DNA of 64,000 nucleotides from Micromonospora sp. WMMD1102 (GTDB lineage Bacteria; Actinomycetota; Actinomycetes; Mycobacteriales; Micromonosporaceae), in NCBI RefSeq assembly GCF_029626265.1, contig NZ_JARUBN010000001.1:62001-126000 (forward strand). Reading direction: 5' to 3'. Below, piece after piece: positions 10,984 through 62,394 of this stretch. The position numbers and the translations under genes were made by a program. Every line of letters begins with the position of its first letter. The first letter of the stretch is position 1. The notes beneath the pieces are model-generated. The model was given only the letters and a program-made list of their open reading frames with translations, had not been told where the DNA came from and did not search any database.

Positions 10984-10993
10984 GGGGTAGGCG

Positions 10994-34048: not shown

Positions 34049-37000
34049 GTGAGCAAGCGGCCGAAGACAGCAAGCCCGATCCTGTCGCGTCTCCGCTGGC
34101 CGGTCGCCGGCCGGCTGCGCGACATGCCGATCTGGTCGAAGCTGGGTCTGATCATGATCGCGCCGACCATCGCGGTCGTCGTGGTCGGCACGACCAGCAT
34201 CGTCGACCACATGGAGACGCTGGACGACGCGAACCGGGCGCACACCCTGGCGACGCTCGCCCAGACCTCCGGTGAACTGGTGCACGACCTCCAGGACGAG
34301 CGCGCCGGCGCCGTACTGCTGCTCGGCTCGCGCAACGACGCGACCCGGAAGGCGGCCCGCGACGCGTACGGCAAGGTGCACCCGGAGGTCGACAAGGCCA
34401 AGGGTCCCTACTCGGAACGCCGGGCACAGCTCGACGAACTGCCGGGCAACTTCGACACGCTGCTGGCCCAGATCGACCAGGGCCTGGCCGACCTGCCGGG
34501 CATCCGCAGCCAGGTCATCAACTCCAAGTTGAAGCTGACCGATGCGGCACAGTCGTACGAGGGTCTGATCAACGACCTGCTGAACATCCGGGACCTGGCC
34601 TCGCAGCTCGCCGGCGACTCCTCGCTGAGCGACCGGATGCGGGCCGCCGCCGCCAACGCGCGCGGCAAGGAGTTCCTGTCGATGCGGCGGGTCGTGGTGC
34701 ACCGCGCCCTGATCGACGGTCAGCTGACCGCCGCCCTACAGACCGACTACATCGCCACCGAAACCGGTCAGCAGCAGGCGTTGCAGACCTTCAAGGCGAT
34801 CGCCACCGGTCCCGAGGCGGCGTTCTACGACGAGACGGTCACCGGCGCCGACGTGCGCGAGGTCGACAGCTACGGCGGCTGGATCCGGGGCCGGACGAAC
34901 GAGAGCATGGCCGATGCGCCGTTCGACGCCGACGACTGGGACTCGGCGATGCTCGGCAACGCCCAGCTGATCCGTACCGTCGAGGGTCGGCTCGACGCCG
35001 ACGTGCTGACCGAGGCGAGCGCCCTCCGCGACGACGTGCAGCGGACGGTCTTCCTGGAGACCGGTCTGCTGCTCAGCATGCTGCTGCTGGCGGTGCTCTT
35101 CGCCTACCTGGTCGCCCGCTCGATGGCCCGTTCGCTGCGCGAGCTGCGGCACGGCGCGCTCTCGATCGCCCAGTACGGCCTGCCGCACGCGGTCTCCCGG
35201 CTGCGCGACCCGCAGATGACCGCCCAGATGTCACCGGTGCAGGTGGCCAACCAGATCGCCGAGCCACTACCGGTACGCAGCAAGGACGAGTTCGGGCAGG
35301 TGACCGAGGCGTTCAACGCCGTCCACCTGGAGGCCGTCCGGACCGCCGCCGAGCAGGCCGCACTGCGCGCCTCGGTCGCGACGATGTTCGTCAACCTCGC
35401 CCGCCGTTCGCAGATCCTGGTCGACCGGCTCATCGGTCACCTGGACCGGCTGGAGCGGGGCGAGGAGGACCCGGACCGGCTGGGCGAGCTCTTCCAGCTC
35501 GACCACCTGGCCACCCGGATGCGCCGCAACGACGAGAACCTGCTGGTGCTCGCGGGCGCCGACTCGACCCGTGTGCAGCGTGAACCGGCGGCCTTGATCG
35601 ACGTGCTCCGGGCCGCGCAGTCCGAGGTCGAGCACTACACCCGGATCGAGTTCGGCATGGTCGACCGGGACCTGGAGGTCCAGGCCGCCGCCGTCAACGA
35701 CCTGGTGCACCTGGTCGCCGAGCTCTTCGACAACGCCACGGCCTTCTCCCCGCCGGACTCGCAGGTCATGGTGGAGGCCCGCCGGGTGGGTGACCGCGGG
35801 ACCCTCTTCGTGGAGGACCGGGGCATCGGCATCACCGCCGAGCAGTTGCAGGACCTCAACGAGCGGCTCGCCACGCCACCCGCCGTCGACGTGACCGTCT
35901 CCCGGATGATGGGTCTGGTCGTGGTCGCCCGGCTGGCCTCCCGGCACGGCGTACGGGTCGAGCTGCGGCCCGGCCCCGACCGGGGGACGGTCGCCGAGGT
36001 CACGCTGCCCGCCGCGATGCTGATTCCCCGGGCGCTCTCCGGCCGCACCCAGCAGCCCGGCGGCCCGATCGCGCCGGAACCGACCGCCCGTCCGGCGATC
36101 GGCGGCCCGCTCGCCCTGGAGAGCGGTCCGGCGGCCACGCCGGCACCGGCCTTCGGCGGCGGTGGCCGCGGGCCGGGCTTCGGTGCCGACCCGGGTCCGG
36201 GCTTCGGCGCCGACCGTGGCCCCGGCTTCGGCGGCGACCGCGCCCCGGGCTTCGGCGGCGGTGACCGTGGTCCCGGCTTCGGCGGCGACCGCAACCGCGA
36301 CGGCGCGCCGCTCGGCCGGCCCTACGAGCCGGCGATGAACGGTGGGCACACCGGTGGCGCCCCGAGCCAGCCGAGGGAGATGCCGGCCTGGTCCGACCTC
36401 ACCGGCGCCCGGGGGGCTGTCCGCAACGGGAACGACCCCTTCACGCCCCGGGTGCCGAACGGGCACGACGTCGAGCCGCTGCCGCAGCGGCGGGCCACCG
36501 AACAGGACGCCGGTCCGTCGCCGGCCGAGACGACGATGTCCGGGTTCATCCCCCGGCAGCGTCCGGCCACGCCGGAGCCGCAGTCGAACCAGCCGAACGG
36601 GCTGGCCGCACTGCCGCCGGCCGCCACGCCGCCGCCGGTGCCACCGGTTTCGGCGCCGCCGTTCGGCCAGCCACCGGTCTCGGCGCCGCCGTTCGGTCAG
36701 CGGCCGGTTTCGGCGCCGCCGTTCGGTCAGACGGCGCCGCCGCCCGCTCCGGCGCAGCCGCCCGCCGCGCCGTCGCCGGCCCAGTCGGGCAACGCCCCGC
36801 CGGCCTGGCCACCGGTGAACACGCCGGACCGGGAGACCGCCGCACCGCCGGTGCCGGAGCGGCTGGCCGCGGCCCTGGACATGACCGCCGAGCTGCCCCG
36901 GATGGCTCGGCCCTCGGCGGCGGAGGCCACGGCCAACGTGGAGGCCCGGCCGAAGTTCGCCGACGAGACCATGGAACTGCCGATCTTCCGCGAACTGGAG

Positions 37001-37585
37001 TCGGCCTGGTTCCGCACCCGCCGGAAGCCCGAGGAAACCGGTGGGCAGCCGCAGGGAGCCCCTACGGCTCCCCAGGCGACCGGCCAGGCCGTCGCGGTGG
37101 ACACCGCCGTTCCCGACGCGGCCCGGATCAGATCCGTACCGACCACAGGCAACGCGGCAACGGTCGACAGCCCGGCCCCCGGTGGCCAGCAGCCGGGAAG
37201 CGGTCCGGCCACCAACAGCACCGGTCGGCCGGGCGAGGGCAGCGGTTGGCGTACTGCGGCCGACGACGGCTGGCGGGCGGCCATGGCGGCTACGACAGCC
37301 GCCACGACGCCCAACCAGACCACCCAGACCGGACTGCCCAAGCGGGTACCGATGGCGCAGTTGGTGCCCGGAGCCGTGGAGAAGCCGACCACCTCGGTGC
37401 AGCGTCGTACGCCGGAGGCGGTGCGCGGGCTGTTGTCCGCGTACCACCGTGGGGTGCAGCGTGGCCGCACGCACCCGACGGACGACCAGTCGACCAGTCC
37501 GGAGGCGACTCCGGCAGGGCAGCAATCCCCGCAGGCCGGAGTGGGCCCCGCGACCGCGAGCGGCCAGAAGGAGCATGAAGGATGA
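34049..37585 (+). CDS. cvnA: Conservon sensor CvnA: NIT/HAMP/histidine-kinase-like ATPase
   Basis: 1178 residues from GTG 34049. Membrane helices at ~30-50 and ~335-355 bracket an outside nitrate/nitrite-sensing-like domain. A HAMP region (from '[20 protein letters not shown]') and '[20 protein letters not shown]' follow. The ATPase part has '[19 protein letters not shown]', '[20 protein letters not shown]' and '[18 protein letters not shown]'. The last ~450 residues are Pro/Gly-rich and disordered, with GPGFGGDR and PVSAPPFGQ repeats, and end in a conserved tail 'SAWFRTRR', '[15 protein letters not shown]'. It overlaps the next gene by ATGA. Conservons resemble a GPCR-like G-protein system. 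Confidence 0.9.
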
Positions 37586-48806: not shown

Positions 48807-49730
48807 TCAGTGCAGGAACAGCGACACCGGCAGCGCGACCAGGGTCGTCGCCAGCGCCAGCGCGGCCACCCCGGGCAGCCGTCCCGGCCGGCGGGCGTCC
48901 AGTAGTCGCTGCACCCGGGCGTCGAGTTCGCCGTCGGCGACCCCGAGCGCGCCGGCCGGGGTGACCCGGGAGCCGGCGCTGGCGAACCGGAGCAGCGCGG
49001 CGGCGAGCGGGGCGTCGGCGTGCAGGCGCCGGGCCTTGTCGTCGGCCCGCATCTCCACCAGCAGGGCGACGGTGTCGTGTGCGGCGCGTACCCACCGGAC
49101 GCCGGGGAGGGCCCGGCAGAGCGCGGTGAAGGGGAGCAGCACCAGGTCGTGCCGCTCGTCGGCGTGCGCCCGCTCGTGGCTGAGTACCGCCGCGAGCTGC
49201 GCGCGGTCGAGCAGGCTCAGGGTGCCGGCGCTGACCACCACCTGCGGGCGTACCCCGGGCAGGCAGTAGGCGGCCGCGCTCGGGTGGTCGAGTACCAGGG
49301 CGCCGGGCGCGGCCGGGTCGTCCCGGGCCACCAGGGTCAGCAGGTCCCGGTGCCGGCGCTGGGCGCGCAGCGCGCCGAGCAGGCTCCGGGCCGTCGAGCC
49401 GAGCAGCACCACCGCCACGCCGACACCGACGCCGACCAGGCCGAGGTGCAGCACACCCAGGCCGGCCGGCAAATCGCCGCCGCCGAGGAGGTCACCGGCG
49501 AGCGACCGCAGCGCGGAACCGGTGCCCTGGCCGTACGGAGCGAGCCCGAGCGAGATCGGCAGGCCGATCGCGGAGAGCCCGAGGGCGAGCCCGACGAACT
49601 GCCAGCAGACGATCGCGATCCGGGGACTGTGCCACGCCCAACCGGCGCCCAGCCGGCCGGACCGGGTCAGGACCTGGGCGGCGAGATAGCAGGCCAGGGC
49701 GGCGAGCGCGAAGTGTGTGGCGTAGAGCAT
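48807..49730 (-). CDS. M56-family membrane metallopeptidase (BlaR1-like sensor)
   Basis: 307 residues from ATG 49730, four bases after the blaI stop. Several membrane helices ('THFALAALACYLAAQVL', 'VGVGVGVAVVLLGSTA', and a final 'VAALALATTLVALPVSLFL') surround the zinc motif 'VLSHERAHADERHD' (HERAH, about residue 195). Earlier 'HPSAAAYCLPGVRPQVVVSA' is typical of M56. There is no penicillin-binding sensor domain, so it is the short type that partners BlaI repressors, presumably cleaving BlaI on a signal. Confidence 0.85.
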   Translation of the reverse strand: MLYATHFALAALACYLAAQVLTRSGRLGAGWAWHSPRIAIVCWQFVGLALGLSAIGLPISLGLAPYGQGTGSALRSLAGDLLGGGDLPAGLGVLHLGLVGVGVGVAVVLLGSTARSLLGALRAQRRHRDLLTLVARDDPAAPGALVLDHPSAAAYCLPGVRPQVVVSAGTLSLLDRAQLAAVLSHERAHADERHDLVLLPFTALCRALPGVRWVRAAHDTVALLVEMRADDKARRLHADAPLAAALLRFASAGSRVTPAGALGVADGELDARVQRLLDARRPGRLPGVAALALATTLVALPVSLFLH

Positions 49731-49734
49731 CGGC

Positions 49735-50175
49735 TCAGCCCCGCCGCTTCGCGGTGTTCGGCCGGTCGGTCGTCGCCACGGGGTCACCGGGTGTCGTCGG
49801 GAGCCGCGTCGGGTCCGACCCGGGCTCGTCGGCCAGCGCCGCGCGCAGCACCTCGGCCTCGGTCCCGGTGACCGAGCGGGCGAACCGGACCAGTGCGGCG
49901 TCCCGGCTGCCGGCCAGGTCCAGGGCGTCGAGCATCAGCCGGGCGATGTGCGCCTCGCGGCTGGCGGCCGGCCGGTAGCGCCAGGCCCGCCCCTCCCGCT
50001 CGCGCTCGACCATGCCCTTGCCGGCCAGCCGGTCGAGCACGGTCATCACCGTGGTGTAGGCCAGCTCACGGTCCCGCAGCGCCTCGGCCACCTCGCGGAC
50101 GGTCGCTCCGGCGCCGGTGCCCCGGTCCCAGAGCACGTCCATCACCGCACGTTCGAGATCACCGAGTCGCGTCAC
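49735..50175 (-). CDS. blaI: BlaI/MecI/CopY-family repressor
   Basis: 146 residues. 'LGDLERAVMDVLWDRGTGAG', 'TVREVAEALRDRELAYTTVM', 'TVLDRLAGKGMVEREREGRA', 'WRYRPAASREAHIARLML' match the family winged helix and dimer region; the last ~35 residues are a Pro/Thr tail. It should repress its own operon with M56 and, judging by the second operator, cydDC. Confidence 0.9.
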   Translation of the reverse strand: MTRLGDLERAVMDVLWDRGTGAGATVREVAEALRDRELAYTTVMTVLDRLAGKGMVEREREGRAWRYRPAASREAHIARLMLDALDLAGSRDAALVRFARSVTGTEAEVLRAALADEPGSDPTRLPTTPGDPVATTDRPNTAKRRG

Positions 50176-50202: not shown

Positions 50203-50506
50203 TAGTTGCCGACCTCGTCGGTCCCGTCCACACCGCGTCTAGCCGCCGGCTTTCGTCGGACGGCCCTGACGGTGACGCCGGAAGAGTGACGCGGGTGACG
50301 GTCGATGCGTCGTGGACAAGTTGGGTTGGACTTCACGCTGCGGACCGGCCCCATGTGGCGCTGCTCAGCCACGAGAACACGATCCGGCAGAGCGGTGTGA
50401 TCCCCGGCTGCCCGGACCTGTTGGCGCCGGTTGACGATCTAGCCGCTGGCATCGCCGCGCACGGTAATCTCTGTCTAATGATTTCGCGGCGGAGGACGAG
50501 TGCGGC
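50203..50506. other. Intergenic region between blaI and fxsA
   Basis: Holds divergent promoters for blaI and fxsA. An open frame 50296-50510 (GTG start) has no family features and overlaps fxsA, so it is not called. No repeat was seen. Confidence 0.4.
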
Positions 50507-50686
50507 ATGAAGAGAGTCGGACCCGATGTCGAGGGGCACCTGGTCGATCTTGAGGATGTCCCGTTGGCTCAGGTGCTGCTGCTCGACGAGGACGAGACCG
50601 TCCTGGCCAACTCGATCCGGAGGGTCATCGATGCGGCCCAGCGGCACCCCCAGGACACCGTGGCAGCGTTCAACAACTACATCTGA
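50507..50686 (+). CDS. fxsA: FxsA: FxSxx-COOH ribosomal-peptide precursor, FNNYI variant
   Basis: 59 residues from ATG 50507, with GGAGG about 12 bases upstream. The leader 'HLVDLEDVPLAQVLLLDEDE' and helix 'LANSIRRVIDAAQRH' follow the usual FxsA pattern (D-L-x-x-V-P-L-x-x-x, then L-R-R-V). It ends TVAAFNNYI, so the F-x-S-x-x C-terminus that names the family has Asn in place of Ser. FxsB-type radical SAM enzymes are known to join the aromatic ring to the beta carbon of the third residue in such a motif, giving a three-residue cyclophane; F-N-N fits. fxsB starts 15 bases after the stop. Confidence 0.85.
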   Translation: MKRVGPDVEGHLVDLEDVPLAQVLLLDEDETVLANSIRRVIDAAQRHPQDTVAAFNNYI

Positions 50687-50701
50687 CGCGCTGCTGGCAA
50701 G

Positions 50702-51889
50702 GTGAGCTGGAACAGTGCGGTCGATTCCGACAGGGTTGTCGGTACGCCGGTTCGGCAGGTGTTGCTCAAGGTCCATAGCCGCTGCAATCTGGCCTGCGAC
50801 TACTGCTACGTCTACCAGCACGTCGACCAGACCTGGCGGAGCCGGCCGAAGGTCATGTCCCGACCGGTGGTCGAGATGGCGGCGAGGCGGATCGCGGAAC
50901 ACGCCCGGCGGCACGAACTCGCTCGCATCACCGTGATCTTCCACGGTGGCGAGCCGTTGCTGGCCGGCCCGGACCTCCTCGACCACGCCGCCCGCGTCCT
51001 GCGGGCCACCGTCCCGGCCAGTACCGCAGTGGACCTGCGGATCCAGACCAACGGGGTGCTGCTGGACGAGGCGTTCCTCGACATGTTCGCAGAGCACGAC
51101 ATCCGGGTCGGTGTCAGTCTGGACGGTCCGGCGGTGGCGAACGACCGGCACCGGGTCTTCGCCGGTGGCCAGGGGAGCCACCGGGCGGTCGCGCGAGCGC
51201 TGCGCCGGCTGCACCAGGAGCGCCACCGCCACCTGTACGGCGGGATCCTGTGCACCGTCAACCTGGAGAACGATCCGATCGAGGTGTATCGGAGCCTGCT
51301 CGCCTTCCACCCGCCCCGGCTGGACTTCCTGCTGCCGCACGGCAACTGGACCACGCCACCGCCGGGCCGGCGAACCGACACCACCGACGCTCCGTACGCC
51401 GATTGGCTCGTCCGGATCTTCGACGACTGGTACGCCACCCGGCCGCAACGGACCGGCATCCGGCTGTTCGAGTCCATTGTCGACCTGCTGTTGGGTGGGC
51501 GCAGCGGCAGCGAGGTCGTGGGGCTGAGCCCGAGCGACCTGATCACCGTGGAGACGGACGGGGCGATCGAGCAGGGCGACGCGCTGAAGACCACCGAGGA
51601 GGGCATGGCGGCCACCGGCCTGCACGTGGCCTCGGCCTCCTTCGACGAGGCGATCGAACAGCCGGGTATCAGCGCCCGGCAGTCTGGTCTGGCCGGGCTC
51701 GCGCCGTCCTGTCGGTCCTGCCTGATCGTCCGGGTATGCGGCGGCGGCCTGTACGCCCATCGCTACCGCGCCGGAAACGGATTCGACAACCCGTCGGTGT
51801 ACTGCCCGGACCTGACCCGCCTGATCCTGCACATCCGCGCCCGGCTGAACGCGGAACTCTCGGCGCTGCGTCGTCCGGGCGCCGACTGA
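50702..51889 (+). CDS. fxsB: FxsB radical SAM/SPASM maturase
   Basis: 395 residues from GTG 50702. 'LKVHSRCNLACDYCYVYQHV' has the C-x3-C-x2-C [4Fe-4S] motif of radical SAM enzymes. 'VIFHGGEPLLAG', 'IQTNGVLLDEAFLDMF' and 'VGVSLDGPAVANDRHRVFAG' are standard TIM-barrel blocks. A SPASM-like end holds 'PSCRSCLIVRVCGGGLYAHRY' (residues ~340-361, landmark) and 'VYCPDL'. It should modify the C-terminal core of FxsA. The full family-typical length suggests it is intact. Confidence 0.9.
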   Translation: MSWNSAVDSDRVVGTPVRQVLLKVHSRCNLACDYCYVYQHVDQTWRSRPKVMSRPVVEMAARRIAEHARRHELARITVIFHGGEPLLAGPDLLDHAARVLRATVPASTAVDLRIQTNGVLLDEAFLDMFAEHDIRVGVSLDGPAVANDRHRVFAGGQGSHRAVARALRRLHQERHRHLYGGILCTVNLENDPIEVYRSLLAFHPPRLDFLLPHGNWTTPPPGRRTDTTDAPYADWLVRIFDDWYATRPQRTGIRLFESIVDLLLGGRSGSEVVGLSPSDLITVETDGAIEQGDALKTTEEGMAATGLHVASASFDEAIEQPGISARQSGLAGLAPSCRSCLIVRVCGGGLYAHRYRAGNGFDNPSVYCPDLTRLILHIRARLNAELSALRRPGAD

Positions 51890-51976
51890 TCGACCGGACG
51901 CACGCTCCCGGAGATGTCGACCGCACGCTCCCAGGACCATCGGCCCCAGGCTCTTGGCACGGTCAATTGCCGGCTC

Positions 51977-52333
51977 TCAGAACTGGAGCAGATCGAACTC
52001 GCATTCCGATCGACCTCGCGCGAGTATCGCGGCGGTCAGGGGATGTTCCCGGCCGACACTCTGACTGGCCCGTGCCAGCAGATCGGCCCGGAACTCCACC
52101 AGCCCGTCGACGTCCCCCAGCGCGGTCCGGCTCGCGGCCAGATTGCACCCGGCTGTCAGCAGATCCGGGTGCATCTCGCGGAAGATGCGGCCCATCGCGT
52201 CGTACACCTGCCGCTCGGTCGTGAGCGCCGCAGCGGGGTCGCCGGCGGCGAACCGGACATTCGCCGCGATCACCGAACATTGCAGGGTGTACGGATGGTC
52301 TTCGTTCAACCCGGACCGCACGTGGGAGTGGGC
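51977..52333 (-). pseudogene. Remnant of an fxsT C-terminal TPR end
   Basis: The minus-strand frame from about 52333 to TGA 51977 reads 'LNEDHPYTLQCSVIAANVRF', 'AALTTERQVYDAMGRIFREM', 'HPDLLTAGCNLAASRTALGD', 'GREHPLTAAILARGRSECEF'. It aligns without gaps with the last ~115 residues of FxsT ('LSEDHPYTLACRLNMANVRF' onward, ending 'DIELEPS'). It is in a different frame from the fxsC-like part beside it. It is what remains of a second fxsT after deletion. Confidence 0.75.
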
Positions 52334-52875
52334 GGTCGTGGCAGCGCGTTCGTGGTGGCGTTGTCCACGATGCGGTTGGCGAGGATGCTGACGGCTTCGA
52401 TGTACTCGTCCTCGTTGCGGCGCAACCGCACAAGCTGGCGCAGCCCGTCCCGCCGGTAGGCCTCGCTGAACACGTCCCGGTCGTACTGCACCGCCTGGAC
52501 CACCTCCGGGACGTGCCGCGGCGGCAACCAGAGGACGGGGAGCAGCGCCGCCGAGCGGGCGCCGCCGGTCGCCTCGTGCCGCCCCACGCGGTCCGCGAAG
52601 ATCTGCCATTCGCGGCCGCACGGTCCGCTTGCGAAATACCGGGGCGAAAAGAGGGCCACGAACGAAGACGCGTTGACCAGGGCATCCACCAACGTAGCCG
52701 ACCAGGTGGCGCCGATCTCAATGCTGTTCTTGTCGAAAAATCCCACCTCGGCGTTGCTTGCCATCCCCGCCCGGACCCGGACCTCAGCGCAGAGGTCACG
52801 GTAGAACCCCTCCACGTAGGGGTCGTCGTCGCTGCGTGCGTAGCTGAGAAAAGAGGTGCAGACGGTGCGGGACAC
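52306..52875 (-). pseudogene. Truncated fxsC-like TIR gene, inverted second copy
   Basis: 189 residues from GTG 52875. 'FLSYARSDDDPYVEGFYRDL', 'FVALFSPRYFASGPCGREWQ', 'FADRVGRHEA' and 'LLPVLWLPPRHVPEVVQAVQ' match the TIR-like N-terminal half of FxsC and are even closer to the family consensus than the intact copy. The C-terminal half (about 200 residues) is missing; after 'ILANRIVDNATTNA' the frame runs out across the junction with the fxsT remnant. A stand-alone TIR-like protein could still be made, so the term pseudogene is provisional. Confidence 0.65.
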
Positions 52876-53381
52876 CGGCCTGCTCCGCGGTCACCCGAGC
52901 GACCCCCCGTCCTGCCGTTGTGAGGGTTAGTTAGGGATGCGGATCTGAACGCGTCACGCGTACATCCGCACCAGACATCATGCCTGCCCGCTGGACGAAT
53001 GCGTAGTGATGGGGAACGGGATAAATCGGTGCGCTCGTCATGATCCTAATGTGCCCGCGCTGACCTGGGGTGATTCACATTCTCGGTACTCAGTTGATCG
53101 GGGGCTCTCGTGCCTGTCTCTGGTGGCGACCGTGCGGTAGCAAGGAGGTTGCGGCTTCCGGTCACGCGGCCGGAGCCACCCGGGAGGTGCGACTTGGATC
53201 AAGAATCCTTCGGTCCGGTGCCACCTGCGCCTACCCGCCGGTTACCCCGGCCTGGTTGTATCGCGTGTTGCGGTCGTGCCGCTGGTAAGTCCAGAATGGA
53301 ACCCGCTGCGTTGGCGCGGCTTCGCGGCAAAATGATCTAGGAAACCCGACAAGATGAACCACCCTGTCCGAGGAGGAGCTG
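52876..53381. other. 505-base divergent intergenic region
   Basis: Separates the inverted remnant from intact fxsC. Short frames at 53070-53340 show no family pattern. It should hold the fxsC promoter; AGGAGGAG at 53371-53378 is the fxsC ribosome site. No palindrome was clear by eye. Confidence 0.4.
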
Positions 53382-54581
53382 TTGACACAGTTCTTCCTCA
53401 GTCGTGCTGTGGGTGACGACGACAGCTACGCGATCCGCTTCTTCCACGACCTGTCGATCAGGGTCCGAGAGCTCTCGGGCGTGGACAGCGACGTCGGATT
53501 CGTCGAGTCGGTGGAGAGTGGCGGTCGTTCGCCCTGGTCGACGGCGGCTCGCGACGCGCTGACCAGCTGTCAGGTATTCGTCGCCCTCTGCTCGCCGCGA
53601 TACTTCCTCAGCGAGCGGTGTGGGCGGCAGTGGGGGCTCTTCGCGGAGCGCCTCCGGCAGTACGAGAAGGAGACCGGACGGCGTGCTCCGGCGCTGCTCT
53701 CCGTGCTCTGGGCCGACAGTGAAATCGTCAAGACCAACAGCGAGCCCGTCCGGCAGTTGATCCGGCTACGCAGTCACCGGCCGCGCTACGAGGCGCTGCT
53801 CGCCGTACTGGCCGGCCAGATCGCGAGTACCGTCGAAGAGCACCGGATCCCACCGAGCAGTCCGAACTTCGACCTGGCCAAGGTGCCGAACGCCTTCGGG
53901 TACACCGCAGTCGGGCCCTCCGGCCGGACCGGGCACGAGTCGAGCGTTCAGACACCAATCCGGAAGGATCTTGCTGGCACGGTCAGCCAGCGGGTGCACT
54001 TCATCGTAGCGGCGGGCAGCCGGACCGAGATGGGCGGCATTCGAGAGGATCTCCGATTCTACGGCGACCGGGGAAGAGATTGGGCCGCTTACCGTCCGGT
54101 GCTGCCGGAGCCGCTGGTCGCGCACGCCTGCGCACTCGCGGCCGACCGCCTCTTCGGGTCCGACGTGGCCGATCTCGTCGATCTATCAAACCGGCTCGAC
54201 CGAGCGCGCCGCAACAACGAGATCGTCGTGCTGCTGGTCGACGCATGGATCACACGCCTCGTGTCCTATCAGCGGATACTCGCCGAATTCGACCGTCGCT
54301 CCGATCCGAGTGTCGCGGTGCTGGCGCCGGCCAGCCTGGCCGATGCGGAAACGGTCCGGCACGGCGGGGAACTCCGGGCAGGACTGGTGCGGATGCTACC
54401 GCACAGACTGGCGCGTGAGGACCAGCTTGTCCGTACCGAAATCGACAGCCCGGAGGCCTTCGAAGCTGACCTTGTGGCGGCGCTGGAGGAGGCACAGAAT
54501 CGTATCTTCAGCAACGGCCGGGTGTTCCGCCGACCTGCCCGGAACGATCCTGTCGAACGTCCAATCCTGCGGGGTCCGTAA
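53382..54581 (+). CDS. fxsC: FxsC, TIR-like protein of the FxSxx-COOH system
   Basis: 399 residues from TTG 53382, chosen for AGGAGGAG just upstream. Residues 1-165 are TIR-like: 'TQFFLSRAVGDDDSYAIRFF', 'QVFVALCSPRYFLSERCGRQ', 'ALLSVLWADSEIVKTNSEPV'. Residues ~200-399 form a second FxsC domain: 'QRVHFIVAAGSRTEMGG', 'YGDRGRDWAAYRPVLPEPLV', 'ARRNNEIVVLLVDAWITR'. The usual 'FLSYAR' is changed to FLSRAV. Its role is unknown; it may signal with FxsT. The stop overlaps the next start by one base. Confidence 0.85.
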   Translation: MTQFFLSRAVGDDDSYAIRFFHDLSIRVRELSGVDSDVGFVESVESGGRSPWSTAARDALTSCQVFVALCSPRYFLSERCGRQWGLFAERLRQYEKETGRRAPALLSVLWADSEIVKTNSEPVRQLIRLRSHRPRYEALLAVLAGQIASTVEEHRIPPSSPNFDLAKVPNAFGYTAVGPSGRTGHESSVQTPIRKDLAGTVSQRVHFIVAAGSRTEMGGIREDLRFYGDRGRDWAAYRPVLPEPLVAHACALAADRLFGSDVADLVDLSNRLDRARRNNEIVVLLVDAWITRLVSYQRILAEFDRRSDPSVAVLAPASLADAETVRHGGELRAGLVRMLPHRLAREDQLVRTEIDSPEAFEADLVAALEEAQNRIFSNGRVFRRPARNDPVERPILRGP

Positions 54582-54871
54582 TGGACGGTCGGAACTCCGA
54601 GCGGTTTGCCCGCGTGCTCGACCCACTGATCACGGAGATCGTGGCGGAGAATCTCCGGCTGCCCGAGTTCGACCCGAACGCCGAAGCCCGGTCCGATCCG
54701 CGGCGGGTGGCAGGCAAGTTCCATCCACTCGCCGGAATTGTTCTTCAACCCTGGCTGATTTTCAGTTCGAAGGTTGCTGAGGACCAGCAACGCTGCGACG
54801 CAAAGGGGCCGGTCGAGAACCCTGGCGTCGCGCTACATACCTGGTGGGGTGATGATCATGAACAACCCTGA
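54581..54871 (+). CDS. Small unknown protein coupled between fxsC and fxsT (96 aa)
   Basis: ATG 54581 overlaps the fxsC stop (TAATG) and the frame ends 20 bases inside fxsT. The first half is a plausible helix ('RFARVLDPLITEIVAENLRL', 'PEFDPNAEARSDPRRVAGKF'), the second half is less ordered and contains 'LAGIVLQPWLIFSS'. It resembles nothing I recognise. Coupling on both sides suggests co-translation with FxsC and FxsT, but chance cannot be excluded. Confidence 0.5.
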   Translation: MDGRNSERFARVLDPLITEIVAENLRLPEFDPNAEARSDPRRVAGKFHPLAGIVLQPWLIFSSKVAEDQQRCDAKGPVENPGVALHTWWGDDHEQP

Positions 54872-57800
54872 GGACGGTCAGCAGTCAACCGGCCGGATCA
54901 TCACCTTCTATTCGTACAAAGGTGGCACGGGCCGGACGATGGCGTTGGCCAACGTCGCCTGGCTGTTGGCCAGTAACGGCTACCGAGTGTTAGCCATCGA
55001 CTGGGACCTGGAGTCTCCCGGCCTGCACCGCTACTTCCATCCGTTCTTGGTCGACAAGGAGCTGCGCGACTCGCACGGCGTGATCGACCTGGTCCGTGAG
55101 TACGCCAAGGCGGCGACGCGGCCGGCTGAGGACGGCTCGGGGGTGCTGGATTCGGCCGAGGTGTCCGAACTGGCCCGGGTCCAGCGCTACGCCAGCTCGC
55201 TGGAGTTCCCCTTCCCGAACGACGGCGGGATCGACCTGGTGCCGGCGGGACGGCAGGGCCCCGAGTACTCGGCCCGGGTCAGCACCTTCAACTGGGACGA
55301 CTTCTACGACCGTCTCGGCGGCGCGGTCTTCCTGGACGCGTTTCGCAAGGACCTCCGAGCCAACTACGACTACATCCTGATCGACAGTCGGACCGGGCTC
55401 AGCGACACCGCCGGCATCTGCACCGTGGTGCTGCCGGACGTGCTGGTCAACTGCTTCACCATGAGCACCCAGAGCATCCAGGGTGCGGTCTCGGTGGCCC
55501 GGTCGATCCGCAACCACCGGCGGGGCCGACCGGTCCAGATCTACCCGGTACCGAGTCGGGTGGAGGACGGCGAGCAGGTCAAGCTGGAACGCAGCCGTAC
55601 GCACGCCCGGCAGCAGTTCGAACCCTTCGTCCGGGCGCTGGAACGGCAGAACGTCGACAAGTACTGGGGCTCCGTCGAGATCCCCTACAAGGTCTACTAC
55701 GCCTACGAGGAAATCCTCGCCGCGTTCGGTGATCGGCCCCGCCAGGAGGGGACGCTGCTGGCCGCGTACGAGCGACTGGCCGGGATGGTGATCGGCTCGC
55801 CAATCGAGCTGCCGATCCTGATCCCGGAGGCCAACCGGCTGCGTTGGCTGGCCGACTTCGAACGCCGTACCCCACTGACGCCGGGCGAGGTCGTGATCAG
55901 TTACGTCCTGCGGGACCGCATCTGGGCCGAGTGGATCGCGGCCGAGTTGAACCGGGTCAGCATCCCCAGCCGGCTGGTCGAGCAACACCTGTCGGTGGAC
56001 GAGGTCGGCCGGGCCGACCGGATGCTGGTGCTGCTCTCCCAGGAGTACGCGCGTTCCCGCGACGCGACGCGGCTGTGGCGGCGCGGACACGAGAGGGAGC
56101 ACAACGGCCCTGGTCGATTTATCGTCCCGATTAGGTTGGACACCACCCCCACCCCGCCGGTGTTCGAGGAGCGGGACGTGGTGGACCTGCACGGGGTGTC
56201 GGCGACGCGGGCCCGGGACACTCTCCTGACGGCCCTCGACCTGGTGGAGGTGCCGTCGTCACCCGGTCCCGGGAGTGGTGGCCAGACCTGGCCGCGGTTC
56301 CCGGCGGCGCTGCCCCCGGTCTGGCGGGTACCGGCTCGGAACCCGGCGTTCACCGGCCGGGCCGCCATCCTGGAAACCCTGCGGAACCGGCTGCACCGGC
56401 ATCCGACGGCACAGCCCCTGGCGTTGCTCGGTCTGGGCGGCGTCGGCAAGACCCAGATCGCCCTGGAGTACGCACACCGGTTCGCCGCCTACTACGAGAT
56501 CGTCTGGTGGATCTCGGCGGACCAGCCACAAATCGTCCGGACCGAGCTGGCCAAACTTGCCGGACAGCTCAAGCTACAGTCCGGGCCGACCGTGAACGAG
56601 CAGGTCGACGCCGTTCTCCAGGCGTTACGGCAGGGCGACCTGTTCCCTCGATGGCTGATCATCTTCGACAACCCGGAAGAGCCGGAGCAACTCCGGGAGT
56701 TCCTGCCCGACGGCCCCGGAGACGTCATCGTCACCACCCGCAACCAGAGCTGGACACACGTTGCCGAGTACCTGGAGATCGGGGTCTTCGAGCGGACCGA
56801 GAGCGTCGAGCTGATCTCCCGGCGAGTCGAGACGATGGTGCCGAGCGACGCCGACGCGGTGGCCGAGCGACTGGGCGATCTTCCGTTGGTGGTGGAGCAG
56901 GCGGCGGCCTGGTTGGCCACCACGGCAATGCCGGTGCGGAACTACCTGCGGCTACTGGACACCCGGCTGCCCGAGATGTTGGCGGAGAAGCCGCCCCAGG
57001 GCTATCCGACCTCGGCGGCGGTCGCCTGGAACCTGTCGCTGCAACGGCTGCGGGAGAGCCGGCCCGCAGCCGCCCGGCTGCTGGAACTCTTCTCGTTCTT
57101 CTCCCCCGAGCCGATCCCGACCTGGCTGCTCCAGACGCCCCGGATGGTCGAAGAGTTGGCCAAGGTCGACCGGGCGATGCGGGACCCGCTGCTGCACGGA
57201 TCGCTGATCCAGGATATCGGTCGGTATGCGCTTGCCCGGGTTGATCCAACAATCAACGCGATTCGGGTTCACCGGCTGGTACAAGCGGTGATCAGGGACG
57301 CGATGAGCGTCGAGGCGAGGGCGGAGAGTCGGGTGCAGGTGCAGGAGATCCTCGCGGCCACGTCGGCCGCGAGGCAGGGTGGGGTGGACGACCAGGAGAA
57401 CTGGTCGACCTACGAGGAGCTGCGCCCCCATCTCGAGCCTTCCGGCGCGCTGGAGTCCCAGGACGACGCGACGCGACAGCTGGTCCTCGACATGGTGCGC
57501 TACCTCTGGCTGCGCGGAGACCTGGCCGGCAGCGAGGAGTTGGCCGAGGCGACCCTGAAGCAGTGGTCGACGATGTTCGAGGTGGAGGACGCCCTGGCGC
57601 TGCGCCTGCGCGTCCAACTCGCCAACGTGGTGCGGAACGCCGGCCGTTTCCAGGAATCGTTCGCGATCAGCCGGGACGTGCTGCCCCGGCTCGAGGGCTT
57701 GGTGGGCCCCGACCACTTCTACACGCTCGAAGCGGCGGGCGGACTCGCCGCCGACCTGAACGCCGCGGGCGAGTACACGGAGGCGGCGGAGCGGAACCGG

Positions 57801-58790
57801 ACGAGTTGGGCTCGCTGGCGGAGCGCCTACGGCGACGACTTCTTCCGGACACTGGGTGCCGCGAACAACGTGGCGTGGTCGGAACGGTTACTCGGGAACT
57901 ACGGCGAGGCGGCCCGGATCGACGCGGACACCCTGCGTCGTCGGCGAAAGGTGCACGGCGGGCGGGACAGGCGGACGTTGCACTCGGCGGTTGCCTACGG
58001 TCGCGACCTCCGGGCACTGGGCGACCTTGCCGCGTCCCGCGAAACGCTGACGAAGGCGCTGGAGGAGTGCCGGAGCGTGCTCGGCGACGACGACAAGGTG
58101 ACCCTCTGGGCAGCCAGGAGCCTGGCGGTGACGATCCGCCAGATGGGCCAGCCACAGGACGCCGTCGCGCTGCTCGACGACACCCTGCGCCGATCACACC
58201 AGGTGCTCGGCGAGCGCCACCCGGAGACCAAGCAGTGTCTGCTCGAGTCCGCCTGTCTCCGGTCCGCACTCGGCGAGCACGTCGCGGCGCAGCAGCAGGC
58301 GCGAGAGGCGGTGACCTACTTCCACGAGAAGTCGGGACCGGACCACCCGCTCACCCTGGGCGCCGAGAATGACCTCGGTATCTTCCTGCTCCGGGCCGGA
58401 GATGCCGCAGCCGCGCTGCCGATCCTGGCGGACGCCGCCGAGCGGTTCACAGACCGTCTCTCGGAAGACCACCCCTACACCCTGGCCTGTCGGCTCAACA
58501 TGGCCAACGTGCGGTTCGCCACCGGCGACGCCGCGGATGCCCGACGGCTCGATGAGCGCACTCAGAGCAAACTGGTGGAGCGGTTGGGCGGGAAGCATCC
58601 GACGACGATCGCGGCAACGGCCAACCTCGCGGTCAGTCTCCGGGAGACCGGTGCCGTGCACGACGGCCGACGGCAGCTCCACAAGGCGCTCGAACTGTCC
58701 CGTCGGGTCCTCGGCGAGGAGCATCCCAGCACCGCCGCGATCCGTGACGGCCAGCGCACCAACATCGATATCGAGCTCGAACCGAGCTAG
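54852..58790 (+). CDS. fxsT: FxsT: ParA-like ATPase / TIR / NB-ARC / TPR protein of the FxSxx system
   Basis: About 1312 residues from ATG 54852 (ATG 54858 is close behind). Residues ~15-60 hold a deviant Walker A ('FYSYKGGTGRTMALANVAWL') and 'LAIDWDLESPGLHRYFHPFL', as in ParA/MinD-type ATPases. Residues ~342-460 ('EVVISYVLRDRIWAEWIAAE', 'RMLVLLSQEYARSRDATRLW') are TIR-like. An NB-ARC unit follows ('LLGLGGVGKTQIALEYAHRF', near 526; 'WLIIFDNPEEPEQLREFLPD'). Residues ~850-1312 are TPRs ('LGAANNVAWSERLLGNYGEA'). The whole is a STAND-type switch that may sense the peptide or a stress and act with FxsC. Confidence 0.9.
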   Translation: MIMNNPEDGQQSTGRIITFYSYKGGTGRTMALANVAWLLASNGYRVLAIDWDLESPGLHRYFHPFLVDKELRDSHGVIDLVREYAKAATRPAEDGSGVLDSAEVSELARVQRYASSLEFPFPNDGGIDLVPAGRQGPEYSARVSTFNWDDFYDRLGGAVFLDAFRKDLRANYDYILIDSRTGLSDTAGICTVVLPDVLVNCFTMSTQSIQGAVSVARSIRNHRRGRPVQIYPVPSRVEDGEQVKLERSRTHARQQFEPFVRALERQNVDKYWGSVEIPYKVYYAYEEILAAFGDRPRQEGTLLAAYERLAGMVIGSPIELPILIPEANRLRWLADFERRTPLTPGEVVISYVLRDRIWAEWIAAELNRVSIPSRLVEQHLSVDEVGRADRMLVLLSQEYARSRDATRLWRRGHEREHNGPGRFIVPIRLDTTPTPPVFEERDVVDLHGVSATRARDTLLTALDLVEVPSSPGPGSGGQTWPRFPAALPPVWRVPARNPAFTGRAAILETLRNRLHRHPTAQPLALLGLGGVGKTQIALEYAHRFAAYYEIVWWISADQPQIVRTELAKLAGQLKLQSGPTVNEQVDAVLQALRQGDLFPRWLIIFDNPEEPEQLREFLPDGPGDVIVTTRNQSWTHVAEYLEIGVFERTESVELISRRVETMVPSDADAVAERLGDLPLVVEQAAAWLATTAMPVRNYLRLLDTRLPEMLAEKPPQGYPTSAAVAWNLSLQRLRESRPAAARLLELFSFFSPEPIPTWLLQTPRMVEELAKVDRAMRDPLLHGSLIQDIGRYALARVDPTINAIRVHRLVQAVIRDAMSVEARAESRVQVQEILAATSAARQGGVDDQENWSTYEELRPHLEPSGALESQDDATRQLVLDMVRYLWLRGDLAGSEELAEATLKQWSTMFEVEDALALRLRVQLANVVRNAGRFQESFAISRDVLPRLEGLVGPDHFYTLEAAGGLAADLNAAGEYTEAAERNRTSWARWRSAYGDDFFRTLGAANNVAWSERLLGNYGEAARIDADTLRRRRKVHGGRDRRTLHSAVAYGRDLRALGDLAASRETLTKALEECRSVLGDDDKVTLWAARSLAVTIRQMGQPQDAVALLDDTLRRSHQVLGERHPETKQCLLESACLRSALGEHVAAQQQAREAVTYFHEKSGPDHPLTLGAENDLGIFLLRAGDAAAALPILADAAERFTDRLSEDHPYTLACRLNMANVRFATGDAADARRLDERTQSKLVERLGGKHPTTIAATANLAVSLRETGAVHDGRRQLHKALELSRRVLGEEHPSTAAIRDGQRTNIDIELEPS

Positions 58791-58825
58791 GAGTTGCGAC
58801 CGTCGGGTGGCAGGACGTCGACGGG

Positions 58826-60665
58826 TCAGGGGCTCAGGGGTAGCGCCATGGCCAGCCAGCCCGCGACGTGCACCGGATCGACCTCGCCGGTCGAGGTCAG
58901 GAACAACCCGCTGACCAACTCGGGGTGCTCGGTGAGGGCCTTCGAAGCGCCCGTCGTACCGCCCTGAGCGCGAGCCAGCGCCACGGCGAGCCCGACCCAA
59001 CAGTCCAAGGTCGTCGGGGCGGAGATCGGCCGCGTACGCGGTCACGGCCTCGTCGTACCGGCCGTCGAGGTAGGCGACGTCCGCTGGCCTGGTAGCTGCG
59101 GGGGGAGCTTCGGCGCCGAGGGTCGGAGCCATCGTGAGGTGGGACCGGATCAGGGTGACGATGGCCGGCTCGGCCGTGCTCGGCGCCGGAAACGCTGGTG
59201 GCGCCCCGGACGACAGCAGGGTGCTCGGATCGGTCGAGGGGGCCAGCCAGGCTGGCCGAGGTGCGTCGGCCAGATTGGCGAGACGGGACGGGTCCGGCCC
59301 GGCGTTCAGCAGTCGCCACCGCACGACGTACGCGAGCGCGGCGTCGGCGGCGGCCCGGTCGATCTCCAACGGCAGCGGTTCCCCGCCCCAGCCGTCCAGG
59401 CGCTCGCGCAACAGTGTGACGAACCGGGTGCCGAGTTCGGTCAGCTCACCCGAGGCCAGCAGGCTGTGCACGGCGAGCAGCGTGAGTCGGCGCCAGAGTG
59501 CGAACTCGAAGTGGGCGGTCCGGAGGCCGTCCGGGTCGGTCGAGATCAGGCGCCGGCGCCGCCAGAAGTCGCAGACCCCGACATGTGCGTCGGCGCCGTG
59601 CAGCAGCGCGGAGATGGGACGAGGGTCGGAACGCCATGGAGCGAAGAAACGGGCCGCGCCGCCCGGTCGGTACAACTCAAGAAGGTCGATGACCGCGACC
59701 AGTTTCATGTGCTGGAACTCGTGGATCAGCGAGAGGGCCAGCGCCTCGGGTGGGCAGTTCGTGGTGACGGCCAGCGACCCGTACGCCTGGAACGACGGCG
59801 CTCCCTGGCTCGTACCCTCGTCCGAGGGCACGAGTGGCACGAGAGAGCGGAGCGCCTCGCGCATCCCGCCGGCGTAGTCGGGATAGTCGGCGCCGAGAAT
59901 CGACCATGCCTCGCGACACAACCGGGTGAACCGCCGTGCCGCCGGCCCGTCCAGCCGGGCCGCCGGTTGCCACTGGTGGCAGTTCCGGTACGGGTCGACG
60001 TCCTCGATCGCCACCCGGTGCCCCCGGCCGACCCGCATCGACCGGTACGGAGCCCAGCGGCTGGACTGCCGGGTGAAGGGGCTGGGCACGACGACGTGCC
60101 GGCCCTTGCCGGTGAAGGTCAGCGTGGTCGGCTCGCCGGTCACGCCTACCCGGTCCCCGTCCAGTCCCACCGCCGTCCCCAACGTGGGAAGCAGTACCAC
60201 GCCGTCCCGGACGGGGAGCGTGAGCTCGAAGGACAACCCTGCCCTTGCCCCCGCGGCCGCGGCCAGCGCGGTCAGATAGCCGAGGTCTGCCAAGGTCTGC
60301 CGGTCGGCGCGGCCGTCACCGGTCGGCGCCAGTTGTCGAAGGCAGGCACCTGCCCAGGCGTCCAGGTACGGGTGGGCCAGGATCGTCCGGACGACATCCG
60401 GGCGGGCCGAACCCGCCGCAACCAGCAGTCGCATCGCCTGCTCCACAGCGGCACCGACAACGCCGCCGAGCTGTGCCGCGCGTTGTGCGATGGCCAGCAG
60501 TTGCACCGTGCGCTTCGAGCGCTGGCTGGCGGTGAGCACCGCGAGATCACCCGGTCTGCCGCCGCCGTGCGCGAGCGCGGTGAACTGCTCGATGGTCAGC
60601 CCATGGCGTCGAAGCTGCTTGTCCTGCACACGCCCGTCCTGCGACGTCCCTGGCGCCGTTCGCAC
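58826..60665 (-). CDS. HExxH-motif protein of the FxSxx locus, frameshifted near its end
   Basis: Start GTG 60665 (GTG 60629 is an alternative). 'LTIEQFTALAHGGGRPGDLA', 'SLIHEFQHMKLVAVIDLLEL' (HEFQH codons 59709-59723) and 'LYRPGGAARFFAPWRSDPRP' define the HExxH-domain family found with fxsA-B. After 'YAADLRPDDL' the frame fails; shifting by one base at about 59006-59009 resumes with 'DCWVGLAVALARAQGG' and ends 'DPVHVAGWLAMALPLSP' at 58826. With one base removed the protein is ~612 residues, complete for the family. It may be a sequencing error or a recent mutation. Confidence 0.8.
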
Positions 60666-60717
60666 GGGTCCCGAGCGTAGTTCCTTGATCTCCGCTCGGT
60701 CTGTCGGCGCGCCGCTG

Positions 60718-61539
60718 TCATCCGGGAGACCGGCCGCACTCCGACGTCTGTCGGTGTCGGGGAAGCCAGCTCTCCGCGTACGTCACGGCAGCGGCGACGG
60801 GGAAGAGCCGGGCCGCTCCAGCACCCACCCCGCCGGTCCGGACCGTACCTGTCGACAGCGATTCGAAATCCTTGCCCAGTTCGGCGAAATCGCGGTCGTC
60901 CAGTACCGCCGCCGGGTAGCTGATCCACTCCCGCCGGCCCTCCGGAGTCGTCACCACGCAGCGGTTCGTCCGACGCCCCAGCCCCGGCAGCCGGTACTCC
61001 GCCAGATGGAACGCGGTGCACCGGTCGTACCCGACGCCGAGCAGCAGCGTCTCGCCACCGACCGACTCGACGGCGCCGAGCGGCGACTCCGGACCGATCT
61101 CGGAGGTGATCGGATGCCGGGCGGTCAGTTCCGCCGCCCGGGCGCCGACCGCGGCGAACGAGGTCTGTGGATGGCCGCTGCGCGCGGCACCGGGCCAGGT
61201 GCGGACCGTCTCGGCGATCAGCCCCAGTTCCCGGCACGGGGTGACGGCAGGGTCGAACGCCGGCAGCTCGGCCCGGATCGTCGGCCACCAGGACTCGGGG
61301 ACCCGGACGTGCGACCAGCGGGACGGATCGCGGTTGTCCCGGCTGAACGCCGGCACGACGAGCGTGCCGCCCTCGCCCAGGACGTCGAGCAGCGCCCGGA
61401 CCACCGTCGGAGCACCTCCGCAGACCCAGCCGAGGGCCCGCAGCGAGGCGTGCAACAGGACCGTGCTGCCGGCCGCCAGGCCGAGCGCGCGCAGGTCCCG
61501 GACGAGACTGCTCCGGGTCTGTGGCTCCGCCTCACCCAT
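60718..61539 (-). CDS. Aminoglycoside N(3)-acetyltransferase family protein
   Basis: 273 residues from ATG 61539. 'STVLLHASLRALGWVCGGAP', 'LLDVLGEGGTLVVPAFSRDN', 'PVTPCRELGLIAETVRTWPG' (with 'FDPAVTPCRELG'), 'SGHPQTSFAAVGARAAELTA' and 'LLLGVGYDRCTAFHLAEYRL' match the AAC(3)/Antibiotic_NAT fold, which acetylates an amino group using acetyl-CoA. Such genes are often seen with FxSxx loci, so the true acceptor may be a different amine; aminoglycoside resistance cannot be assumed. It reads toward the HExxH gene with 52 bases between. Confidence 0.8.
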   Translation of the reverse strand: MGEAEPQTRSSLVRDLRALGLAAGSTVLLHASLRALGWVCGGAPTVVRALLDVLGEGGTLVVPAFSRDNRDPSRWSHVRVPESWWPTIRAELPAFDPAVTPCRELGLIAETVRTWPGAARSGHPQTSFAAVGARAAELTARHPITSEIGPESPLGAVESVGGETLLLGVGYDRCTAFHLAEYRLPGLGRRTNRCVVTTPEGRREWISYPAAVLDDRDFAELGKDFESLSTGTVRTGGVGAGAARLFPVAAAVTYAESWLPRHRQTSECGRSPG

Positions 61540-61569
61540 GCGACGGGAGTGTGCCAGAAACGGTGCCGG

Positions 61570-62394
61570 TCAGATCCCCTTCGGGTGCCAGACCGTCTTG
61601 GTCTCCAGCAACGCGGTCATCCGGCCGATGCCCGGATCGGCGGCCCAGTCGACCGGACCGGCGGGCGGCCGGAGTACCCGCTTGAGGTTGCCGGCCGCGG
61701 CCCGCTCCAACTCGGCGGCGAGGTCCGGGTCGGCGACCCCGGTCAGGTCCAGCGCGTTCACGTCCATGTGCCCGGCCAGCCAGGGCGCGGTCTCGGCCGG
61801 CCGGCCGGTGAGCAGGTTGACCACCCCACCGGGCAGGTCGGAGGTGGCCAGCACCTCGGAGAGGGTGATCGCGGGCAGCGGGCTCGCCTCGGCGACCAGC
61901 ACCACCACGGTGTTGCCGGTGACGATCGCCGGTGCCACCACGCTGACCAGCCCGAGCAGGGCCGGCTCGGCCGGGGCGACCACCCCGACCACGCCGGTCG
62001 GCTCGGGTGCGGAGAGGTTGAAGTACGGGCCGGCGACCGGGTTGGCGTTGCCGTAAATCTGGGTCAGCTTGTCGGCCCAGCCGGCGTACCAGACCCACCG
62101 GTCGATCGCCTCGTCCACCTCGCCGGCCGGCACGCCGAGGCCGACGAACTGGTCCCGCCGCCCCTCCAGCATCTCGGCGACCCGGTAGAGGATCTGCCCC
62201 CGGTTGTACGCGGTCGCACCCGACCAGCCCTTGACCGCCGCCCGCGCCGCCAGTACGGCGTCCCGGACGTCCTTGCGGGAGGCGAGTGCCACGTTGGAGT
62301 TCTGCACCGGATACGACCGCCCCGACTCGCTGCGCGGGAACTTCCCGCCGATGAAGAGCTTGTACGTCTTGCGTACCGCCACCCGCTCAGACAT
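61570..62394 (-). CDS. Aldehyde dehydrogenase family protein, short form without catalytic Cys
   Basis: 274 residues from ATG 62394, overlapping the full-length partner's stop. 'KTYKLFIGGKFPRSESGRSY', 'RGQILYRVAEMLEGRRDQFV', 'EPTGVVGVVAPAEPALLGLV' and 'LPGGVVNLLTGRPAETAPWL' are the N-terminal NAD-binding half of the family. The catalytic Cys/Glu half is absent and it ends after ~274 residues. Paired full and short forms next to deoC are typical of actinomycetes; the short one may stabilise or regulate the long one. Confidence 0.8.
   Translation of the reverse strand: MSERVAVRKTYKLFIGGKFPRSESGRSYPVQNSNVALASRKDVRDAVLAARAAVKGWSGATAYNRGQILYRVAEMLEGRRDQFVGLGVPAGEVDEAIDRWVWYAGWADKLTQIYGNANPVAGPYFNLSAPEPTGVVGVVAPAEPALLGLVSVVAPAIVTGNTVVVLVAEASPLPAITLSEVLATSDLPGGVVNLLTGRPAETAPWLAGHMDVNALDLTGVADPDLAAELERAAAGNLKRVLRPPAGPVDWAADPGIGRMTALLETKTVWHPKGI

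Follow-up and report, generated by a model that had tools for sequence, protein, structure and literature searches.

The fxs locus and its deletions

We describe here an fxs locus in a 64,000-nucleotide stretch of the genome of Micromonospora sp. WMMD1102 (positions 62,001 to 126,000 of contig NZ_JARUBN010000001.1; "the window" refers to this whole stretch, in whose numbering positions are given). The locus encodes a peptide precursor (FxsA) and its radical SAM maturase (FxsB), together with FxsC proteins, which join a TIR-like domain to a C-terminal domain of their own, and FxsT, a STAND protein. Judged from its sequence, one FxsC-FxsT module of the window is whole (FxsC1-FxsT1), and a second (FxsC2-FxsT2) is reduced to an open reading frame (ORF) for a TIR domain alone. 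DNA comparison with same-genus genomes places the genes on an island of approximately 11.35 kb (~50,215-61,565), and the homologous island in genome G162 is approximately 16.3 kb. The features of the locus are as follows.

50507-50686, plus strand: fxsA, a 59-residue precursor (TIGR04268, 32.9 bits, cut-off 28)
50702-51889, plus strand: fxsB, a radical SAM/SPASM maturase of the cyclophane-forming FxsB family (TIGR04269, 523.7 bits, cut-off 370)
51963-52305, minus strand: remnant of the fxsT2 3' end, encoding TPRs (51976-52297 has 77% DNA identity to the 3' end of G162 fxsT2)
52306-52875, minus strand: fxsC2 stump, a 189-residue ORF (NF040588, 170.5 bits, cut-off 130; TIR_2, 43.5 bits, cut-off 28)
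53382-54581, plus strand: fxsC1, TIR-like domain and FxsC C-terminal domain, of the FxsC1 clade (TIGR04276, 138.6 bits, cut-off 55)
54581-54871, plus strand: remnant of fxsC3, a TIR-only gene in same-genus loci, with the TIR part deleted (51% identity over 43 residues to the C-terminal part of the G162 ORF)
~54852-58790, plus strand: fxsT1 (NF040586, 947.7 bits, cut-off 300; NF047398, a KGGVGR ATPase model, 150 bits, cut-off 90)
58826-60665, minus strand: stand-alone alpha-ketoglutarate-dependent HExxH beta-hydroxylase, with the motif HEFQH (TIGR04267, 153.5 bits, cut-off 40)
60718-61539, minus strand: AAC(3)-like Antibiotic_NAT protein, inside the island (PF02522, 281.4 bits)

An initial annotation of this DNA had named FxsA, FxsB, FxsC, FxsT, the HExxH hydroxylase and the AAC(3)-like protein, and all are present where it had placed them, over curated NCBIfam or Pfam cut-offs. 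Its description of FxsT as a ParA-like ATPase with TIR, NB-ARC and TPR parts is also borne out, by NF040586 and NF047398 and by Pfam matches to TIR_2 (50.8), NB-ARC (32.8) and TPR. FxsT1 consists of a KGGTGR ParA-like domain, a degenerate TIR, an NB-ARC domain with intact Walker A and B motifs, DUF7779 and TPRs, and has candidate in-frame starts at 54849, 54852 and 54858. The locus had been called complete, which it is not. Relative to G162 and a second same-genus genome, G159, approximately 4.3 kb is gone between 52,297 and 52,343, taking with it the bulk of fxsT2 and the part of fxsC2 that encodes the C-terminus, approximately 0.7 kb is gone between 54,586 and 54,598, comprising the TIR part of fxsC3, and the hydroxylase reading frame is broken near 59,005, within its last 60 codons, such that the G162 protein aligns with two frames.

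The fxsC2 stump retains the entire Glu-bearing TIR domain and stops shortly after it, and the FxsC C-terminal domain is gone. Its ratio of non-synonymous to synonymous substitution (dN/dS) against G162 is 0.13, and against the outgroup G181 it is 0.29, close to the 0.28 of the intact G162 gene; therefore there is no sign of decay or relaxed selection in the sequence, with which a recent truncation is also compatible. The intact FxsC1 has Gln at the catalytic Glu position expected of a TIR nicotinamide adenine dinucleotide (NAD) hydrolase (NADase), and its TIR domain is weak, scoring 26.6 bits with TIR_2 (cut-off 28) and 101.0 with NF040588 (cut-off 130). The proposal that a TIR-like protein is encoded beside a STAND switch thus stands as to the presence of FxsC, but it had missed that the intact FxsC lacks the Glu and that the Glu-bearing FxsC2 persists only as a TIR-only ORF.

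Several related loci have features of their own. In Rhizocola hellebori (locus L146, 8583-9638) FxsT2 is also truncated, with the ParA part alone matched, and adjoins a full FxsC2. Single ORFs at L060 (383-2470) and L130 (5770-9384) match both FxsC-type TIR and NB-ARC/TPR models and are apparent natural fusions, and many of the aligned FxsC proteins have an RPILxGP-like tail at the C-terminus.

Two FxsC lineages and the catalytic glutamate

A tree of 102 FxsC sequences contains two well-supported groups that differ at the catalytic position. The FxsC1 group has 28 members (support of 99 in the Shimodaira-Hasegawa-like approximate likelihood ratio test, SH-aLRT), of which 24 lack the Glu and have nine different residues in its place; the FxsC2 group has 39 members (support 95), all with Glu. 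The FxsC1 group is recovered from the C-terminal domain alone (95/94). In the FxsT tree all 22 assignable partners of FxsC1 (22 of the 28 had an FxsT long enough and near enough for assignment) form one group with support of 99, against 62 other sequences. FxsT therefore splits as FxsC does, and the modules, on the evidence of the two trees, were duplicated once and then kept together. The two modules are arranged head-to-head in six of 18 loci (the window, L150, L151, L160, L161 and L201) and convergently in the other 12.

In the alignment of TIR-like domains the catalytic position holds E in most proteins. Glu-less copies were first seen in loci with two FxsC-FxsT modules, after the loci had been extended. 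The prediction that each pair has one Glu-less copy was fixed beforehand, and nine of nine new pairs fit it (Y, V, R, S, Q, V, A, D and V, each against E), with the Glu-less copies falling into the FxsC1 clade; in G244 the Glu copy is spread over two frames. The new loci were from 49 stretches (9 + 40) taken among the FxsC matches listed, and 12 short loci were used. Over all pairs (seven discovery, two same-genus and nine new), 17 of 18 have exactly one Glu-less copy. The exception is G159, in which both copies have E, and the pairing as an exceptionless rule, drawn from the seven discovery pairs, is ruled out by it.

A broader tally covers 92 loci with 144 TIR-like ORFs, after removal of four duplicate loci (L175, L185, L189 and L191) and two split ORFs (L198|1119 and L206|7077); in very divergent FxsC proteins the Glu column is assigned from the alignment alone. 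The 44 loci with a single FxsC have E in 43 cases and D in one (L240), several of them (L193-L196) being short stretches that could have a more distant partner. Among the 48 multi-TIR loci, 25 have one non-Glu copy, none has two, and none is without a Glu copy, so that in the 92 loci there is no FxsC1 without a Glu-bearing TIR nearby. For FxsC proteins with the C-terminal domain, a non-Glu residue is found in 24 of 60 from multi-TIR loci versus one of 41 from single loci (Fisher p 9.7e-6, with relatedness ignored). In seven of the 25 loci (L192, L210, L211, L214, L221, L242 and L245) the Glu-bearing partner is a TIR-only protein beside FxsC1, and the fxsC2 stump of the window now resembles these natural partners in other species.

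The pairing of switches with and without an enzyme site suggests, at the level of sequence, a working pair rather than junk. There are several observations that count against this reading. A second half of the prediction, Glu in supposed single loci, failed in form in three of 12 (L175, L191 and L192), each of which proved to have FxsC1 beside a TIR-only Glu partner; Glu is present in every copy of 23 of the 48 multi-TIR loci, four FxsC1 sequences retain E (L160, L183, L184 and L190), and the single FxsC of L240 has D. By shuffling of labels within multi-TIR loci the pattern is only mildly unusual, 551 of 20,000 trials leaving no locus without Glu and 205 of 20,000 no locus with two non-Glu copies. 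The nine test pairs and the discovery pairs are all of one family, and the E/non-E character needs only four parsimony changes over 101-102 sequences, such that the losses are not independent. Because so few changes are needed, the strength of the case is in the lineage pattern and not in many independent losses.

These few steps are also what would be expected if FxsC1 were a decaying or drifting duplicate, with the pairing reflecting one old duplication and relaxed constraint and having no functional meaning. The nine different residues at the Glu position are consistent with drift, as is the greater diversity of FxsC1 TIR domains (mean identity 0.40 versus 0.50 for FxsC2). Glu, at 100% in FxsC2, is down to 14% in FxsC1, and the Y and R of the SYAR motif and the D of GFxD fall too; altogether 25 of 45 FxsC2-conserved columns are below 80% in FxsC1, with Glu seventh and not singled out. 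However, seven columns are invariant in both lineages, FxsC1 is retained in 28 sequences from several genera with a dN/dS of approximately 0.25, its co-inheritance with FxsT1 holds in 22 of 22 cases, and the deletion in the window struck FxsC2-FxsT2 rather than FxsC1-FxsT1. We consider drift an improbable explanation.

Peptide, tailoring enzymes and the borders of the island

FxsA of the window ends in AAFNNYI, with an F-x-N core, and has a dN/dS of 0.14 against G162. The FxSxx label given to the locus therefore needs qualification, since the precursor has F-x-N and not F-x-S. Where FxsC1 is present, 10 of 11 loci have an FxN precursor, versus two of 28 where it is absent, from 39 of 84 FxsB genes having a precursor above 5 bits; related species are counted separately, and a p-value would be only indicative. 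As a sequence pattern this fits a peptide motif that tracks receptor type. Precursors are not uniform in number or form, in that L047 has three FxsA-like ORFs close to fxsB and a precursor in L052 carries FNSFI twice.

The CxxxCxxC motif and the SPASM Cys residues of FxsB are invariant in 18 aligned FxsB proteins, and we take IPR026335, to which MscB belongs, to be the FxsB family. The hydroxylase has the highest dN/dS among the island genes compared (0.40) and is a separate gene, scoring below the cut-off of the FxsBH model NF040587 (141.7 bits, cut-off 225). Of 105 FxsB loci, 19 have the AAC(3)-like gene; the named loci in this set are the 80 best among 565 relatives identified. The G162 island contains fxsA, fxsB, fxsT2, fxsC2, fxsC1, fxsC3, fxsT1, the hydroxylase and the AAC(3)-like gene, and because these fill it between the flanks, the last two are part of the unit.

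The locus could be an ordinary cluster for a ribosomally synthesised and post-translationally modified peptide (RiPP), from which a bioactive cyclophane is secreted, with FxsC and FxsT merely regulating or protecting. The chemistry is compatible with this: the triceptide enzyme MscB makes Phe-Ser cyclophanes and XncB and OscB make Phe-Asn, all i to i+2 cross-links (PMC11002830), and HEXXH enzymes hydroxylate cyclophane-type peptides (PMC12636437). However, the G162 island has no gap much larger than 0.5 kb, such that it could not accommodate a typically sized gene for an exporter, a protease or a regulator, and a STAND protein (NB-ARC/TPR) is encoded in 86 of the 105 FxsB loci, that of the window included. 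This association is not chance: scoring of 150 among 214 candidates across the 8.92-Mb genome gives a background of at least 28 NB-ARC matches. An ordinary RiPP cluster is thus, in our judgement, unlikely.

The island occupies its site in three of seven same-genus genomes (the window, G159 and G162). In the other four (G160, G161, G163 and G164) the site is empty and the flanks join within ~30-125 bp; the spacing of the conserved flanks is 12.6 kb in the window, 17.4-17.6 kb in G159 and G162, and 1.26-1.37 kb at the empty sites. At the left flank, the protein encoded in the window is 93% identical to those of the empty-site genomes G161 and G163 versus 84-85% to those of the filled G159 and G162, a similarity pattern that points to transfer or repeated loss. 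The flanking features are:

48807-50175, divergent from fxsA: BlaI-like regulator and M48 peptidase genes of the left flank, outside the island and adjoining cydDC
Right flank: aldehyde dehydrogenase gene

BlaI/M48 was considered as a regulator of the fxs system and rejected, the same genes standing at the empty sites. The flanks are housekeeping genes, with no defence island, and the GC content of the window is 72%. PADLOC, run on eight proteins for defence neighbours, returned no more than viperin-type matches to FxsB and a PDC-M28B match (82.8 bits) to the ParA portion of FxsT, neither of which we accept as a defence neighbour; a search of the window with Rfam at gathering cut-offs matched nothing. 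A second FxsB locus is present in the genome (contig positions 926054-927154, in L039, 916001-936000), with a HExxH enzyme and an NB-ARC/TPR protein bearing a ParA-like part, and FxsC was not matched within this interval. Elsewhere in the window, two adjoining large ORFs (8989-14398; 664 and 1134 residues) have strong coding bias and no Pfam match at 1e-5, and a histidine-kinase-like protein of 1178 residues (34049-37585) has a NIT (nitrate/nitrite sensing) domain.

A possible two-arm switch and its relatives

The TIR domain of FxsC2, the only domain modelled, gives an AlphaFold model with a predicted local distance difference test score (pLDDT) of 84.7 and a predicted template modelling score (pTM) of 0.83, and Foldseek matches the model to TIR structures; its fold is that of a TIR. 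The Glu is residue 85, within model helix 80-99 (alpha-C), and aligns with the Glu of the WCxxE motif of Cat1 and Roq1; TIR_2 matches 22 of 22 Glu-bearing domains. The TIR of FxsT was considered as a catalytic domain and rejected, no conserved Glu being evident by eye in 41 aligned sequences. The fxsC2 stump matches a Thoeris type III model of NCBIfam no better than chance would (E 0.12).

There are several grounds for proposing that FxSxx switches control development or stress responses in a multicellular actinobacterium, with the TIR as a non-catalytic scaffold and no role in defence: the housekeeping flanks, the missing Glu in the FxsT TIR, and the failure of Foldseek to separate NADases from adaptor TIRs, which match the FxsC2 model nearly as well (AbTir 12.8, Hydra TRR-2 12.6, MyD88 11.8). 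The last of these also tells against a catalytic FxsC2, as does SIGIRR, the best PDB profile match, which is without Glu at that position. However, presence of the island in only three of seven same-genus genomes is the mark of an accessory trait, and Glu in 43 of 44 single-FxsC loci argues for catalysis. We regard a non-catalytic role in development or stress as very unlikely.

The reading that we favour, at about even chances, is that the fxs locus couples an intracellular cyclophane peptide to a TIR-STAND switch of two cognate modules, one a catalytic and the other a non-catalytic arm. Cyclophane formation, alpha-ketoglutarate-dependent hydroxylation and TIR NADase chemistry are known at the level of the families. 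By analogy with its family, FxsB would cross-link Phe to Asn in the FxsA tail, and the HExxH enzyme may hydroxylate the product. The modified peptide could then be an internal ligand read by FxsT through its TPRs, and peptide-bound FxsT would assemble through NB-ARC and cluster the TIR domains of FxsC. Module 2 (FxsC2-FxsT2), with its Glu-bearing and presumably NAD-consuming TIR, would be the executor, and module 1 (FxsC1-FxsT1), whose TIR appears to have lost the Glu, may be a sensor, an adaptor or a brake on module 2. Because the TIR-only form occurs naturally beside FxsC1 in other species, the switch of the window may still work with its module 2 shrunk to a TIR-only ORF. Other observations are less easily accommodated by the two-arm switch: some FxN precursors continue beyond the motif, and a free C-terminus is thus not universal, 84 of 105 FxsB loci are without an FxsC bearing the C-terminal domain, and no second effector gene was seen in the island.

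Kaur et al. had already proposed in 2020 that FxSxx peptide systems partnered by TIR/AP-ATPases have a role in conflict (PMC7159879), and the FxsT proteins resemble the AP-ATPases with ParA-like and TIR parts of the stand-alone peptide systems described there. The initial annotation had similarly suggested a peptide-gated defence or stress-signalling switch, and in part this fares well, with the patchy island, the intact Walker motifs, the TIR fold, the lack of room for an exporter or protease, and the motif following the receptor all on its side; the absence of a defence island in the flanks is not. The kind of system is real and already named. All four families of the FxSxx-COOH system (TIGR04268, TIGR04269, TIGR04276 and NF040586) are over cut-off in the window, which we class as a variant because its core is FNNYI and a literal C-terminal FxSxx is absent; it differs also in the two FxsC-FxsT modules of relatives, one of them collapsed in the window, and in the AAC(3)-like gene. 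The locus is unlike the VMAP ternary conflict system in that VMAP, vWA and MoxR genes are absent and fxs genes fill the island between conserved flanks. With the triceptide systems (MscB, XncB and OscB) it has in common a radical SAM/SPASM maturase, and it differs in an island without an exporter and in being known here from its genes.

Two systems offer analogies for the pairing of FxsC1 and FxsC2. In staphylococcal Thoeris both ThsB1 and ThsB2 are required, with catalytic residues needed in ThsB2 only (PMC12578639). The predicted likeness is of two TIR proteins with catalytic residues needed in one, but FxsC carries a C-terminal domain peculiar to it and is partnered by a STAND protein, and ThsB1 still has the Glu; PADLOC gave no Thoeris match among the eight proteins, ThsA not having been searched for. 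In the plant paired TIR nucleotide-binding leucine-rich-repeat receptors (TIR-NLRs) RPS4/RRS1, the TIR of RRS1 is without the catalytic Glu (PMC7282519), and the analogy would be to a linked TIR-STAND pair with one Glu-less TIR. The fxs pairs differ in that the Glu-bearing and Glu-less TIR domains are on a separate protein, FxsC, that TPRs replace leucine-rich repeats (LRRs), and that the pairs are mostly convergent (12 of 18).

It is tempting to extend the two-arm switch to a more general proposal, which we offer tentatively and think somewhat doubtful: that paired TIR-STAND receptors arose in Actinobacteria separately from those of plants, consisting of a Glu-bearing executor (FxsC2-FxsT2) and a Glu-less sensor or decoy (FxsC1-FxsT1), gated by a ribosomal cyclophane peptide of the same cell, with the window representing a natural deletion after which the sensor arm and a TIR-only executor remain. 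The internal logic of FxsC1 and FxsC2 is what is new here, made visible by the deletion in the window; we found no report of the pairing in the literature searched, a weak negative given its thin coverage of subscription papers. The pairing indicates which FxsC should cleave NAD and which should not, and the FxsT partner of each, and it picks out the species in which one-arm and two-arm versions occur naturally. If the two-arm switch is correct, a bacterial TIR-STAND switch would take a modified peptide as its internal signal, and the pairing of a live with a dead TIR would have arisen in bacteria as it has in plants.

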